A stretch of 64,000 nt of DNA, taken from Arthrobacter antibioticus. Its GTDB lineage: Bacteria > Actinomycetota > Actinomycetes > Actinomycetales > Micrococcaceae. Within the stretch, counting starts at the first letter, position 1. Every line of letters starts with the position of its first letter. Of the stretch, positions 2,773-8,252 are shown one piece after another. The notes beneath the pieces were generated by a model, which was given only the letters and a program-made list of their open reading frames with translations, had not been told where the DNA came from and ran no database searches. The DNA lies in the NCBI RefSeq assembly GCF_030063205.1, contig NZ_JASISQ010000001.1:547152-611151 (forward strand). Reading direction: 5' to 3'. The translations under genes and the position numbers were made by a program.

Positions 2773-2969
2773 GGTCAATTCGTCTTTCCATTAATTGGCT
2801 GCGGCACGGAGCGTTCATGCAAGTCGTTCATTCAAGTGCAGGTCTGCTCTTTCCCTGATGGTGTGAGCCCTAGAGTACTGAGCATACTGGGTGGCCCTCA
2901 CAGCTACCAACGAAAAAATGGCGCCGCTATATAGCCTTGAAAGTCCACCATTGAACTAAGATTGCCTTA

Positions 2970-3058
2970 ACGGCGATGGATCCCGCCGGGACCGTTTTCG
3001 GTCCGAACCGCCGTTGTGGCTGATGGTTTCCTGCCCCGATTCACGGGTGGGAGAAACC
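2970..3058 (+). promoter_or_regulatory. Fluoride riboswitch (crcB motif) controlling the MFS gene
   Basis: The aptamer core GGCGATGGATCCCGCC (2972-2987) is followed by a variable stem (GGGACC/GGTCC), then AACCGCCG and GGCTGATGGTTTCCTGCC (3018-3035). This order matches the crcB fluoride motif, and the core is identical to the copy at 8072-8160 on the other strand. The 3' end of the aptamer (GGTTTC, 3025-3030) can pair with GAAACC (3053-3058), and CCCG with CGGG at 3043-3046. The resulting hairpin would hide the ribosome site (GGGTGGGAGA) just before the ATG at 3059. That predicts a translational ON switch: fluoride binding holds the aptamer and frees the start. Pairing was judged by eye. Confidence 0.87.
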
Positions 3059-4387
3059 ATGTGCCAAACACCTGCAGATCACAACGGTGCGGAGGATTCG
3101 CCCGTCACGGGCGCCGAACCCTCTCCGAATCCCGTCAAGGACGCTCCAGCGCCAGCTGACCCATTCGAAGTAGCGGCACCGTCTACACAATGGCTGAATA
3201 CAGGCATTCTTGGGATTGGTGCAGCATCCTTTTTTAGCGATTCGGGTCACGAGCTCGTCACATCCTTGTTACCGTCCTTCCTAAGTTCAACCCTGCACAG
3301 CGGACCGGCGGCGCTGGGAGCTATAGAAGGTGTCGCCGATGCCTTAGTAGGCCTGAGCAAATTGGCTGGCGGTCCTCTGTCCAACGATCCAGCCCAACGC
3401 AGCAAAGTAGCAGCGAGTGGATATTTACTGACAGCCGTTGCGACGGCGCTTATCGGCGTGTGCACGGCCGTGTGGCAAGTTGCCGGTTTCCGAGCGTTGG
3501 CGTGGGCGGCACGCGGGCTGCGCTCGCCATCCCGGGACACTTTGTTGGTTTCAATTACACCCCGCAATGCCTATGGACGAGCAGCCGGGATTGAACGTGC
3601 AGGGGATAACGCTGGAGCAGTTGTGGGCCCGCTGCTTGCGGCTGCTTTGGTGGGCGCGCTTGGCATTAGAACGGCGATTCTCTTCTCATTTATCCCCAGC
3701 ATGTTTGCCGCCGGAGCAATAGTCGTGGCTGCGCGGCAGGCACGACTATTTGTGGCCAGACCAGAAGTGAAGCGATCACTGAGTTTTAACTTGGCTGGAT
3801 TGCGACTCTCAGGGTTGTTTACGGTACTCGTTCCGGTGTCATTTTTTGAATTGGGCAATCTTGCAGCGACGCTGCTAATTCTTCGCGCCACGACGGTTTT
3901 AGAAGCCGGTGGTGTGGCAGCCGGAGCGGCTGTGACGAGTGCTATTCTCATGTACTCATGCCACAACGCATCGGCCTCTGTTGCGGCTCTTGTTGGTGGC
4001 CGACTGATAGATCGGCTGAGTCCTCGCCTTGTTTTCACGCTCGGCACGGCCATGTATGTGGCCGCCTATCTACTCTTTGCCATTGACAGTGGGGGTCCAG
4101 TGATCTTGGTAGCGGGTTTTTTCTTGGCAGGTTTCGGTATCGGTTTCGCGGAGACCTCCGAGCAAACAGCCGTGGCATTATTACTTCCGGACCGGCTGCG
4201 AGGCAACGGATACGGTCTCTTGGGGCTGGTGCAGTCTTTTGGTGACTTAGGCGCCACCGTGGTGGCCGGAATCCTGTGGGCAGTGTTCTCACCAACCGAA
4301 GCTTTTCTCTATGCAGCTTTCTGGATGGTTGGCGCGCTTGTCTCATCCCCGTCATTATCGCTGCAAAGGGTAGCCAAGAAACGTTGA
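3059..4387 (+). CDS. MFS transporter under fluoride riboswitch control
   Basis: A 442-residue major-facilitator-superfamily membrane protein with about 10-12 hydrophobic segments and a hydrophilic N-terminal tail of about 45 residues. The conserved loop region RGLRSPSRDTLLVSI and a duplicated six-helix layout support MFS. The ORF is open from a TTG at 3014, but that codon lies inside the riboswitch aptamer. The ATG at 3059, preceded by GGGTGGGAGA, is therefore the likely start. The gene converges on the crcB-containing operon and carries its own fluoride riboswitch, so it should be made when fluoride rises. Its substrate cannot be read from sequence; fluoride, a metal-fluoride complex or a stress metabolite are all possible. 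Confidence 0.85.
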   Translation: MCQTPADHNGAEDSPVTGAEPSPNPVKDAPAPADPFEVAAPSTQWLNTGILGIGAASFFSDSGHELVTSLLPSFLSSTLHSGPAALGAIEGVADALVGLSKLAGGPLSNDPAQRSKVAASGYLLTAVATALIGVCTAVWQVAGFRALAWAARGLRSPSRDTLLVSITPRNAYGRAAGIERAGDNAGAVVGPLLAAALVGALGIRTAILFSFIPSMFAAGAIVVAARQARLFVARPEVKRSLSFNLAGLRLSGLFTVLVPVSFFELGNLAATLLILRATTVLEAGGVAAGAAVTSAILMYSCHNASASVAALVGGRLIDRLSPRLVFTLGTAMYVAAYLLFAIDSGGPVILVAGFFLAGFGIGFAETSEQTAVALLLPDRLRGNGYGLLGLVQSFGDLGATVVAGILWAVFSPTEAFLYAAFWMVGALVSSPSLSLQRVAKKR

Positions 4388-4533: not shown

Positions 4534-4902
4534 TCAGAGGCTGCCTGCCAAGATCAAACCGGAAATTGCCGCCCCAACACTCAAAACGAGTGTGCCAAGA
4601 CCACTGATTAAGGCGAAGCCGACCCTGCCAGTCTGGAAAAGTCTGACCGTTTCGAAACTGGCTGTGCTGAACGTGGTGTAACCACCCAAAAACCCGACGC
4701 CCAAAACTTTTACTAGTTCCGGGCTAGCCTGGTGAACCATAACCAGCCCCGTCAAAAACCCTAAGACGAGTGAGCCGGTGATATTGATGAGCATTGTCCC
4801 TATGGGTAAAGCTGTCCGGAGGCGGGAGCGCAGCAATCCGTCCAGGATGAATCGGGTGCCGGCACCCAGTCCGCCGGCAACCGCAAGTAGCACAATGGTC
4901 AT
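4534..4902 (-). CDS. crcB: FluC/CrcB fluoride channel subunit 2
   Basis: A 122-residue integral membrane protein with four transmembrane segments, the usual length for Fluc-type fluoride channels. The family motif GGYTTFSTASFE (near residues 73-84) and the conserved Asn in LINITGSLVLGF are present. The reading frame is open much further upstream, but the proper start is ATG at 4902. That codon overlaps the stop of the preceding crcB by four bases (ATGA) and follows the strong site GGAGGGGGA. Fluc channels are dimers with inverted topology; adjacent paired genes are usually obligate heterodimers, as expected here. Last gene of the fluoride operon. Confidence 0.92.
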   Translation of the reverse strand: MTIVLLAVAGGLGAGTRFILDGLLRSRLRTALPIGTMLINITGSLVLGFLTGLVMVHQASPELVKVLGVGFLGGYTTFSTASFETVRLFQTGRVGFALISGLGTLVLSVGAAISGLILAGSL

Positions 4903-5450
4903 GGTAGATCCCCCTCCATCTGCGGCCCTAACCGCGTGTTCTTGGCTCGAGTCACTGCAATGCGGTGGTGACGGCCGGCGGCCCAGATGCCAAGCGCTGT
5001 GGCGAGTACCCCACCGATGATGGTGAGGGACAAATACAACAGCATGGTGGGGATCCTGTTGGTTTCGATAAACAGTCCGGCCTCCAAAGCGAGAGTGCTG
5101 TAAGTGGTGAAAGCACCCATAAAACCAGTGCCAGCCACCAAACGGATAATCCGCCGTCGTCCAGCGTCTTGGCCACGCCGCCCTAAACCCTCTAACAGTG
5201 CCCCCAACGCAAAGGCTCCCACAAGATTCACGCACAACGTTGGTAGTGGCCAGCCACTCACTGAAGGCACTGCTTCTTCAATTCCATAGCGGGCGAGTGT
5301 ACCCAGCATCCCGCCCACAACCACTAGAGCCACATATCCGGGATGCAGGTGGATAGATCGGTGAGCCGAAGAGGACCCCAAAGTATCCACGTCACTGTCT
5401 ACCGGTAATGTCCCTGCCTTACGGAAAATTTTCGCAGTCAGCCCGTTCAT
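4899..5450 (-). CDS. crcB: FluC/CrcB fluoride channel subunit 1
   Basis: A 183-residue fluoride channel subunit. The N-terminal 40 residues are a hydrophilic extension not usual in the family; the four-helix CrcB core follows. Family signatures GAFTTYSTLALE and CVNLVGAFALGALLEG are present. It is the partner of the next gene, with which it overlaps by four bases, and its start overlaps the universal stress gene by four bases. Two adjacent crcB genes with this organisation encode a heterodimeric channel that lets fluoride leak out of the cytoplasm. Expression should follow the riboswitch upstream of the operon. Confidence 0.92.
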   Translation of the reverse strand: MNGLTAKIFRKAGTLPVDSDVDTLGSSSAHRSIHLHPGYVALVVVGGMLGTLARYGIEEAVPSVSGWPLPTLCVNLVGAFALGALLEGLGRRGQDAGRRRIIRLVAGTGFMGAFTTYSTLALEAGLFIETNRIPTMLLYLSLTIIGGVLATALGIWAAGRHHRIAVTRAKNTRLGPQMEGDLP

Positions 5451-7315: not shown

Positions 7316-8071
7316 TTATGTACCTCCGTTGGCGGTGAGCGCCGCTACGGCTTGAGCGGCTGCACCGGGGTCGAGGTAAGTCCCGGCCCGGGGAAAGGGA
7401 ATAAATCCAGGGCGGAAACGGTATGCCAGCGGATGGGCCGTGGGCAGGTTTAAGTCCTCGACCTCAGCTTCACTAAGAGAGTCAATGATCAGGCACAAAG
7501 CACGCAAGGAATTGCCATGACCCACTATCAGGACGTCGGTTCCCACATGCAGTAGGGGCTGGACGGTCTCATTCCAGAAGCTCTGCAGCCGTGTCACCAC
7601 GGCGTGGAGTGACTCGGTGGGGCGAGTTGTCCCTTGGGGCATGGCAGTAACTGCCCTGTTGCTGCCAATCGCGGCCAGCTGGCGAGGTGTCATCGGAGGC
7701 GGGGCACCGTAGAGGGACCGGCGCCACGAATGAAGTACCTGAGGCCCGTCGTGGGCTAAAAGCTCGCTTTTGCACAGCCCGGTCAATGCTCCGTAACTGC
7801 GTTCGTTGAGTTCCCAGACTTCCTGGATGGGAACGGTCCCTGCCGTCAAAATCTCGTTGACCAGCTGCGCTGTCTCCAGGGCACGTGACATTGCGGATGA
7901 AAATATGCACTCTGGAATGAGAGCGGCATCAGCGAGGGACTCGGCAGCACGCTGGCTTTCCCTGCGACCTTGAGAAGTCAGAGGCGGGTCGAGCAGTCCG
8001 GTGAACCGTCCCTGTGCGTTGAGGGTACTTTGGCCATGACGCAAAAGGATCAGGGTACCTAGCTCGGACAT
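7316..8071 (-). CDS. 2,3-BPG-dependent phosphoglycerate mutase (GpmA-like)
   Basis: A 251-residue histidine-phosphatase-superfamily protein of the dPGM subgroup. The catalytic motif reads LRHGQSTLN near residue 9 (canonical RHGESxWN). The dPGM-specific ELNERSYGALTG, the RRSLYGAPPP substrate loop and the second His in GHGNSLRAL are present, so it is more than a generic phosphatase. It makes the enolase substrate, and the enolase gene follows. It is the first gene after the riboswitch; its ATG at 8071 follows GGTAGGTGAG, which is sequestered in the switch hairpin. Divergent motif residues point to a specialised paralogue of the glycolytic enzyme. Confidence 0.88.
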   Translation of the reverse strand: MSELGTLILLRHGQSTLNAQGRFTGLLDPPLTSQGRRESQRAAESLADAALIPECIFSSAMSRALETAQLVNEILTAGTVPIQEVWELNERSYGALTGLCKSELLAHDGPQVLHSWRRSLYGAPPPMTPRQLAAIGSNRAVTAMPQGTTRPTESLHAVVTRLQSFWNETVQPLLHVGTDVLIVGHGNSLRALCLIIDSLSEAEVEDLNLPTAHPLAYRFRPGFIPFPRAGTYLDPGAAAQAVAALTANGGT

Positions 8072-8160
8072 AACTCACCTACCTTTGAAGAGCAAAGGTA
8101 GGAACCATCAGCCAAACGGCGGTTCGAACTGCTAAGCAATTCCGGCGGGATCCATCGCCA
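8072..8160 (-). promoter_or_regulatory. Fluoride riboswitch (crcB motif) controlling the gpm-eno-usp-crcB-crcB operon
   Basis: Read on the minus strand: GGCGATGGATCCCGCC starts at 8159. A variable stem follows, then AACCGCCG and GGCTGATGGTTCCTACC, matching the fluoride-riboswitch consensus better than any other class. The last aptamer bases CCTACCTTTG (8102-8093) form a perfect 10-bp stem with CAAAGGTAGG (8087-8078) across a five-base loop. The right arm includes the ribosome site immediately before the ATG at 8071. The alternative folds therefore give a translational ON switch. The downstream crcB pair makes the identification very secure. Confidence 0.95.
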
Positions 8161-8252
8161 TAACTAACCATAGCGTGACTCGTGCAACTAGCACCAGCTA
8201 TGCTCACTTATCGGCTCCAGAAGGAGCCGCCAAATTCGGTGTCCAGTGGACA

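Follow-up and report, generated by a model that had tools for sequence, protein, structure and literature searches.

Introduction

Proteins with which cells counter fluoride have come to light through fluoride riboswitches, and the membrane transport proteins controlled by these riboswitches include the CLC-F antiporters and the Fluc/CrcB channels. According to a passage of PMC7266159, the EriC/CLC-F exporters were recognised through these riboswitches. Among the described systems closest to the locus reported here is the fluoride operon tabulated for Enterobacter cloacae FRM, ppaC-uspA-eno-gpmA-crcB-orf5249, the last gene (orf05249) being annotated as a divalent cation transporting ATPase (PMC5533749). 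Targets listed for the crcB motif in the main text of Weinberg 2010 include mutS, K+ or Cl- transport and formate hydrogen lyase genes, and the words “major facilitator” are absent from that text (PMC2864571). Passages of a 2024 review name exporters, Na+/H+ antiporters, pyrophosphatase, enolase and others, describe enolase and pyrophosphatase as fluoride-sensitive enzymes, and make no mention of the major facilitator superfamily (MFS; PMC11139923).

The window analysed here is a 64-kb stretch of the Arthrobacter antibioticus genome that carries, beside a riboswitch-led crcB operon, an MFS gene preceded by a fluoride riboswitch aptamer of its own. A reading of the sequence made before any database search had called such a target uncommon or undescribed. 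In the literature searched, no paper connects an MFS gene with a fluoride riboswitch: in the part of PMC11477304 concerned, the MFS gene is under an FMN riboswitch; PMC12595759 has “major facilitator” in its reference list only; and no MFS target is named in passages of PMC5533749, PMC11139923, PMC5971314, PMC9495176, PMC7266159 or PMC13104614. BenE-I of Pseudomonas putida was considered as a precedent and rejected, its effect on tolerance being indirect and the relevant passages containing neither “MFS” nor “major facilitator” (PMC13104614). Since the gene list of Baker 2012 (Science) lies outside the searched literature, it is likely rather than proven that the MFS gene is a new target of a known riboswitch class. 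The riboswitch is ordinary as a switch and unusual in its target.

Organization of the locus

The transporter gene and the operon that it faces are arranged in the window as follows.

3059-4387 (+): MFS transporter gene, 442 amino acids, Pfam MFS_1 95.8 bits (cut-off 33.4)
4534-4905 (-): crcB, second gene of the pair, PF02537 80 bits
4899-5450 (-): crcB, first gene of the pair, PF02537 78.8 bits
5447-5968 (-): universal stress protein (usp) gene, PF00582 51.7 bits
5965-7260 (-): enolase (eno) gene, TIGR01060 503.3 bits (cut-off 300)
7316-8071 (-): phosphoglycerate mutase (gpm) gene, TIGR01258 195.1 bits (cut-off 81.7)
8092-8168 (-): fluoride riboswitch of the gpm-eno-usp-crcB-crcB operon, RF01734 45.7 bits, E 1.9e-9 in 64 kb

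The MFS gene is convergent with the crcB pair, as had been noted from the sequence, and the pair proves to be the distal part of a longer operon, gpm-eno-usp-crcB-crcB (8071-4534, minus strand), headed by the riboswitch at 8168-8092. Like the operon of E. cloacae FRM, this one places enolase, phosphoglycerate mutase, Usp and CrcB behind a riboswitch; the E. cloacae table differs in having no MFS gene, and one riboswitch is reported there, not two (PMC5533749). As a side observation, the genome that contains the window has a second crcB pair elsewhere (C18:180569-181443), near which no RF01734 match is listed at E <= 10.

The transporter also differs from the CLC-F and Fluc/CrcB proteins in belonging to another superfamily. 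A Pfam search (E <= 0.001, 3059-4384) found only MFS_1 in it and no CRCB (PF02537) or CLC domain, NCBIfam models gave generic MFS signals far below their cut-offs, and no PDB chain was related to it by sequence at E <= 0.01.

A second fluoride riboswitch aptamer

The leader of the MFS gene contains the following elements.

2957-2962 (+): TAAGAT, a possible -10 element directly upstream of the aptamer, weak and picked by eye
2963-3040 (+): fluoride (crcB) riboswitch aptamer of the MFS gene, RF01734 32.2 bits
2972-2987 (+): P1 helix (2972-2975/2984-2987) with its loop, paired in 18 of 18 chosen leaders
2989-3004 (+): extra helix (2989-2994/2999-3004) between P1 and P3, without counterpart in the Rfam consensus
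3010-3020 (+): P3 helix (3010-3012/3018-3020), all cells paired in the 18 leaders
3025-3031 (+): GGTTTCC, putative switching strand, proposed from complementarity and fold
3023-3060 (+): expression-platform hairpin, extending over part of the Shine-Dalgarno sequence to the second base of the start codon

That a second fluoride riboswitch precedes the MFS gene was the central claim of the sequence-only reading, and computation bears it out through the covariance score, covarying helices, a hairpin at the ribosome site, the gene order and recurrence in relatives. The aptamer itself is confirmed. A permissive Rfam cmscan of 2800-3200 places RF01734 at 2963-3040 on the plus strand with an E-value of 3e-7 in 401 nt, aligning all 64 of the 64 model positions as a two-helix aptamer with the conserved core. 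Its score lies below the curated gathering cut-off of 34 bits, and at curated cut-offs a scan of the whole window lists only the operon riboswitch. In the whole genome (3.79 Mb, 21 contigs) it is the second of 17 matches (E 6.8e-7) at a limit of E <= 10, which is loose and gives RF01734 matches in 14 of 14 control genomes as well; the best match is the operon copy and the third reaches 18 bits (E 0.03). In our view the sub-threshold score reflects an extra U in the tail and the length of the insert that separates P1 from P3. Counterparts before MFS genes of relatives score 29.9 bits (G019, the same species), 28.2 bits (G238) and 34.2 bits (A. cryoconiti). The two aptamers of the window have 18 identical consecutive bases, GGCGATGGATCCCGCCGG, which fits the common core of 16 bases counted earlier. 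The TAAGAT hexamer was not reported by a consensus promoter scan.

Both the identical bases and the low score would be expected if the MFS-side aptamer were a decayed duplicate of the operon riboswitch, lying by chance before an unrelated MFS gene. We regard this as most improbable: the A. cryoconiti copy exceeds the cut-off, the leader is kept in four genomes of three species whose MFS proteins form a subgroup with 100/100 support, helices and hairpin are retained in leaders of the MFS type, and elsewhere in the wider group MFS genes are linked with riboswitches through different gene orders.

The helices were assessed in an alignment of 18 leaders, a chosen set of loci brought in by riboswitch searches or by a motif scan, of which four precede MFS genes, five gpm, five MutS, two a gene for an unknown protein and one a pyrophosphatase gene, the remaining one being without assigned gene. 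Across the alignment 97.0% of cells pair. The alignment scores 0.302 for covariation; shuffles average 0.176 (sd 0.020), 0 of 500 scoring as high, and slid controls score at most 0.158. Two-sided changes occur at 6 of 13 pairs (matched by 10 of 500 shuffles), and further pair types number 13 (matched by 42 of 500). Most of this covariation is supplied by the extra helix, which has two-sided changes at five of six pairs with 93.3% of cells paired. P1 contributes little (one of four pairs changes on both sides, 100% of cells paired) and P3 none, being almost invariant and so leaving little room for covariation (one-sided change only, two-sided changes at 0 of 3 pairs).

With the RF01734 class the aptamer has in common P1 and P3, the conserved GAUGG loop, the GGCUGAUG tail, the position in the 5´ leader, and a tail that could serve both pseudoknot and expression platform. 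The loop of P1, GGATCC (2978-2983), would be the 5´ side of the pseudoknot, and GGUUUCC at 3025-3031 can pair with it (GGAUCC in RNA), a candidate pairing read from the letters and left unscored, in which GGA/UCC and CC/GG would flank a U-U mismatch, with one U more than in the Rfam form. This mismatch with its added U, the extra covarying helix between P1 and P3, and a translational hairpin as platform with no terminator found set the MFS-side element apart from the family.

Expression platform and proposed switch

The Shine-Dalgarno sequence GGGAG lies at 3049-3053 and the ATG of the MFS gene at 3059, so that 18 nt separate the end of the aptamer from the start codon. The minimum-energy fold of 3023-3060 engages G3050, G3051 and G3053, and also the first two bases of the ATG, in pairs, in keeping with the earlier claim that a hairpin covers the ribosome site, here part of the Shine-Dalgarno sequence and of the start codon. 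The hairpin folds at -19.5 kcal/mol with a modest z of -2.11, and 5 of 200 shuffles fold as low; the whole leader (2966-3075) has a z of -3.61, with 0 of 200 shuffles as low. For each of the 18 chosen leaders the start was set at the first ATG or GTG no closer than 25 nt downstream, which differs from the true start in several of them, e.g. those of Arthrobacter sp. ISL-72 (L012) before MutS and pyrophosphatase; in every one the minimum-energy fold has the tail paired with the stretch ahead of this start. The evidence here is the folds themselves, computed without shuffles and with no reliance on pairing probabilities.

A transcriptional platform was considered and rejected, no terminator-like site being found downstream of the MFS-side aptamer. 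With no terminator and a hairpin over the start, we infer a translational ON switch. The strand at 3025-3031 can alternatively pair with 3051-3058, as it does in the minimum-energy fold, and the expression platform probably competes with the pseudoknot for this shared tail. Without fluoride, the aptamer tail (3025-3032) would mask the Shine-Dalgarno sequence and start of the MFS mRNA by base pairing. Fluoride and Mg2+ would stabilise the pseudoknot, which draws on the same tail, and its formation would free the ribosome site for synthesis of the MFS protein. The convergent operon would supply phosphoglycerate mutase, enolase, Usp and the CrcB channel at the same time. Fluoride binding, switching and induction at the MFS leader are predictions from its sequence. 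We nevertheless hold it to be very probable that the element is a working translational ON fluoride riboswitch and that the fluoride regulon includes the MFS protein as an accessory member.

Recurrence in relatives

Homologues of the MFS protein (E <= 1e-40) were sought in genomes within the class of the window, in plasmid records and in one scan of genome contigs. They occur in 8 of 23 genus genomes, 8 of 245 sampled family genomes (7 of these 8 belong to the genus) and 22 of 394 class genomes; three further loci came from the genome contigs and eight records from plasmids, six of these from Rhodococcus. A search of plasmids for DNA-level relatives gave no match. In a tree of 35 rows the window falls in a group of 17 with support of 94/89, below the starred level of the tool. 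Of these 17, 12 are tied to a fluoride riboswitch: four directly after it, three further down, four divergent and one on a plasmid island, with five showing none.

The direct arrangement is found in the window, G019, A. cryoconiti and G238, which amount to three species, as the window and G019 belong to one; the A. cryoconiti DNA (L011) lies unchanged inside G005. Further down from the riboswitch, the MFS gene follows a pyrophosphatase with a weak CrcB-like C-terminal part in ISL-72, a pyrophosphatase-like frame about 600 bp from the riboswitch in G259, and two MutS-like genes in G363. In G008 and G018 (found with Rfam) and in G016 and G020 (found by motif scan only) a riboswitch on the opposite strand heads a MutS-like pair divergent from the MFS gene. 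On the Rhodococcus plasmids, eno-MFS and a riboswitch-led crcB-crcB-usp set point away from each other and a MutS-like pair lies close by, as seen in two of the six records, one of which was scanned with Rfam for the riboswitch. Among members without a tie, G004 and G263 have no riboswitch match genome-wide; the fetched MFS locus of G286 has none (a weak match of 22.1 bits lies beside crcB on another contig), nor has the 3.5-kb MFS contig of G304 (32.5 bits beside crcB on another contig), nor the fetched locus of a metagenome-assembled genome (L013), where enolase adjoins the MFS gene.

Within the family, RF01734 matches at E <= 1e-4 are present in 20 of 245 genomes, namely in 6 of 8 that bear the MFS gene compared with 14 of 237 others (Fisher p 3.5e-6, ancestry ignored; the search missed G016, found by motif scan). 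Within the genus the figures are 5 of 8 and 0 of 15 (E <= 0.001, p 0.0017, ancestry again ignored; G016 and G020 missed). Since 14 of 237 genomes have the riboswitch without the MFS gene, that gene is dispensable to the regulon. The first genes after the 28 riboswitches of these 20 genomes, assigned by best match to reference proteins within 1.5 kb, are usp in ten cases (nine then followed by crcB), gpm-eno in six, MutS-like in four and MFS in four; one riboswitch precedes an unknown protein and pyrophosphatase, one an enolase fragment with usp and crcB, and two have no assignment. An MFS gene is thus an uncommon first target, as had been supposed, with two of its four cases coming from one species.

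The convergent position had suggested a joint response of the MFS gene and the crcB operon. The shared sensors favour this; the position is not general among relatives. Convergence is common to the window, G019 and ISL-72, whereas a MutS-like pair lies downstream of the MFS gene in G005 and a histidine-phosphatase gene in G238, and G008 has its two riboswitches on separate large contigs. A joint response therefore rests on the sensors more than on position.

Possible function of the transporter

Several gene orders place members of the MFS group under or beside the switch, which makes the group a candidate contributor to fluoride tolerance that has so far gone unrecognised. The transporter is probably an undescribed component of the fluoride response. 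Its neighbours across loci are enolase, pyrophosphatase, phosphatases, Usp, MutS-like ATPases, an antiporter and CrcB. We weigh highest that it is a carrier relieving a consequence of fluoride, in anion, phosphate ester or proton balance; an anion or proton-coupled carrier easing fluoride stress is our working guess.

A possible though tentative reading is transport of a phosphate-type or other small organic anion (e.g. phosphate, phosphoglycerate or an organic acid), the level of which would be upset by the inhibition of enolase and pyrophosphatase by fluoride. The recurrence of enolase, phosphoglycerate mutase, inorganic pyrophosphatase, PAP2 and histidine phosphatases is consistent with it, as is the adjacency of enolase to the MFS gene in L013, L068, L069, L071 and the Rhodococcus plasmids, and passages of PMC11139923 link phosphate handling to fluoride resistance. 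Against it, the phosphoglycerate transporter model TIGR00881 gives 43 bits where its cut-off is 407.75, a generic MFS signal. Nor does structure point to a substrate site: the AlphaFold model (four sequences) is weak, with a mean pLDDT of 62.3 and a pTM of 0.63, and among the 50 Foldseek matches listed for it MFS carriers with diverse substrates predominate, at TM about 0.4-0.55. Structure was rejected as a route to the substrate on account of this low confidence.

Alternatively, the protein may itself export F- or HF, probably coupled to protons, and would then add a third class to the bacterial fluoride exporters Fluc/CrcB and CLC-F. An own riboswitch heading a single transporter gene speaks for this, as does the repeated presence of such genes in actinomycetotal fluoride loci and on a plasmid of one alphaproteobacterium. 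This plasmid, from Caulobacter sp. S6, has a riboswitch (52.7 bits) followed in one direction by genes for a Na+/H+ exchanger, Usp and the MFS protein, and there is no crcB among the 18 genes listed for that stretch in an incomplete gene table. We consider direct export doubtful, as the loci of the window, G019 and ISL-72 already have a crcB pair, and rows outside the group of 17 look different. Of 16 such rows, 14 have no other fluoride-reference gene in the fetched locus, some of these loci being short contigs, and in four scanned with Pfam the neighbours of the MFS gene are P450, MFS, FMO-like, GntR regulator or unknown genes. One of the 14, G431, has a crcB pair about 13 kb from the MFS gene on the same contig. 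The two rows that differ from the 14 are the Caulobacter plasmid and G601, where crcB genes lie about 7 kb from the MFS gene, as does a weak riboswitch (20.5 bits). The outside rows argue against every MFS member being a fluoride protein, and the Caulobacter plasmid points to fluoride use of such proteins in at least two lineages. That the MFS group, possibly with a separately recruited Caulobacter relative, constitutes a third family of fluoride exporters, riboswitch-induced and spread on plasmid and chromosomal islands, seems unlikely to us. To our knowledge, no residue signature for fluoride has been described in MFS proteins.

A further explanation is that the transporter exports fluorinated or other toxic organics and that the riboswitch reports fluoride released from them. 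In agreement with this, the protein shows generic similarity to the drug/H+ antiporter models TIGR00880 and TIGR00900, and the many MFS folds that match its model weakly include NorC and other drug exporters. It is improbable in view of the neighbours: no dehalogenase is annotated among them (Pfam on chosen frames; listed plasmid genes), and those that recur are fluoride-target enzymes and stress genes.

The genes found around the MFS gene, for enolase, pyrophosphatase, a MutS-like pair and a protein without known family, also sketch the fluoride regulon of these bacteria. The riboswitch-led MutS_V pairs that adjoin MFS genes in relatives recall the mutS targets listed in the main text of Weinberg 2010.

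Other features of the surveyed loci

Tandem proteins with MutS_V as their single clear Pfam domain recur near MFS genes (L012:2639-5787, L069:6144-9175, L076:6178-9254, L097:17395-20522), and in several of these loci the pair follows a fluoride riboswitch. The protein without family, of about 299 amino acids, is encoded after a fluoride riboswitch at L012:13090-13989 and L095:9553-10425; the two copies are 57% alike and have no Pfam or NCBIfam match, and in L095 a pyrophosphatase gene overlaps the end of the gene. The pyrophosphatase of ISL-72 is one frame (L012:6945-7913) that joins a PF00719 N-terminus to a weak CrcB part (PF02537 21.5 bits, under the cut-off).

Six Rhodococcus plasmid records have the MFS-eno pair in their annotation, and in both L097 and L100 the fluoride island lies beside TnsA/TniB/TniQ transposition genes. 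Another Rhodococcus MFS gene, inside the crcB operon (L097:10597-11823), was rejected as an orthologue at 29% over 162 residues. The enolase gene convergent with the MFS gene in G008 (L070:10883-11969) matches in separate pieces and looks broken. In G008, G016, G018 and G020 (L068-L071) the sequence around ATCATGGCAAGTAGT, ahead of the MFS start, looks alike by eye; it sits between the MutS-like pair and the MFS gene and may be a leader element or a short frame.
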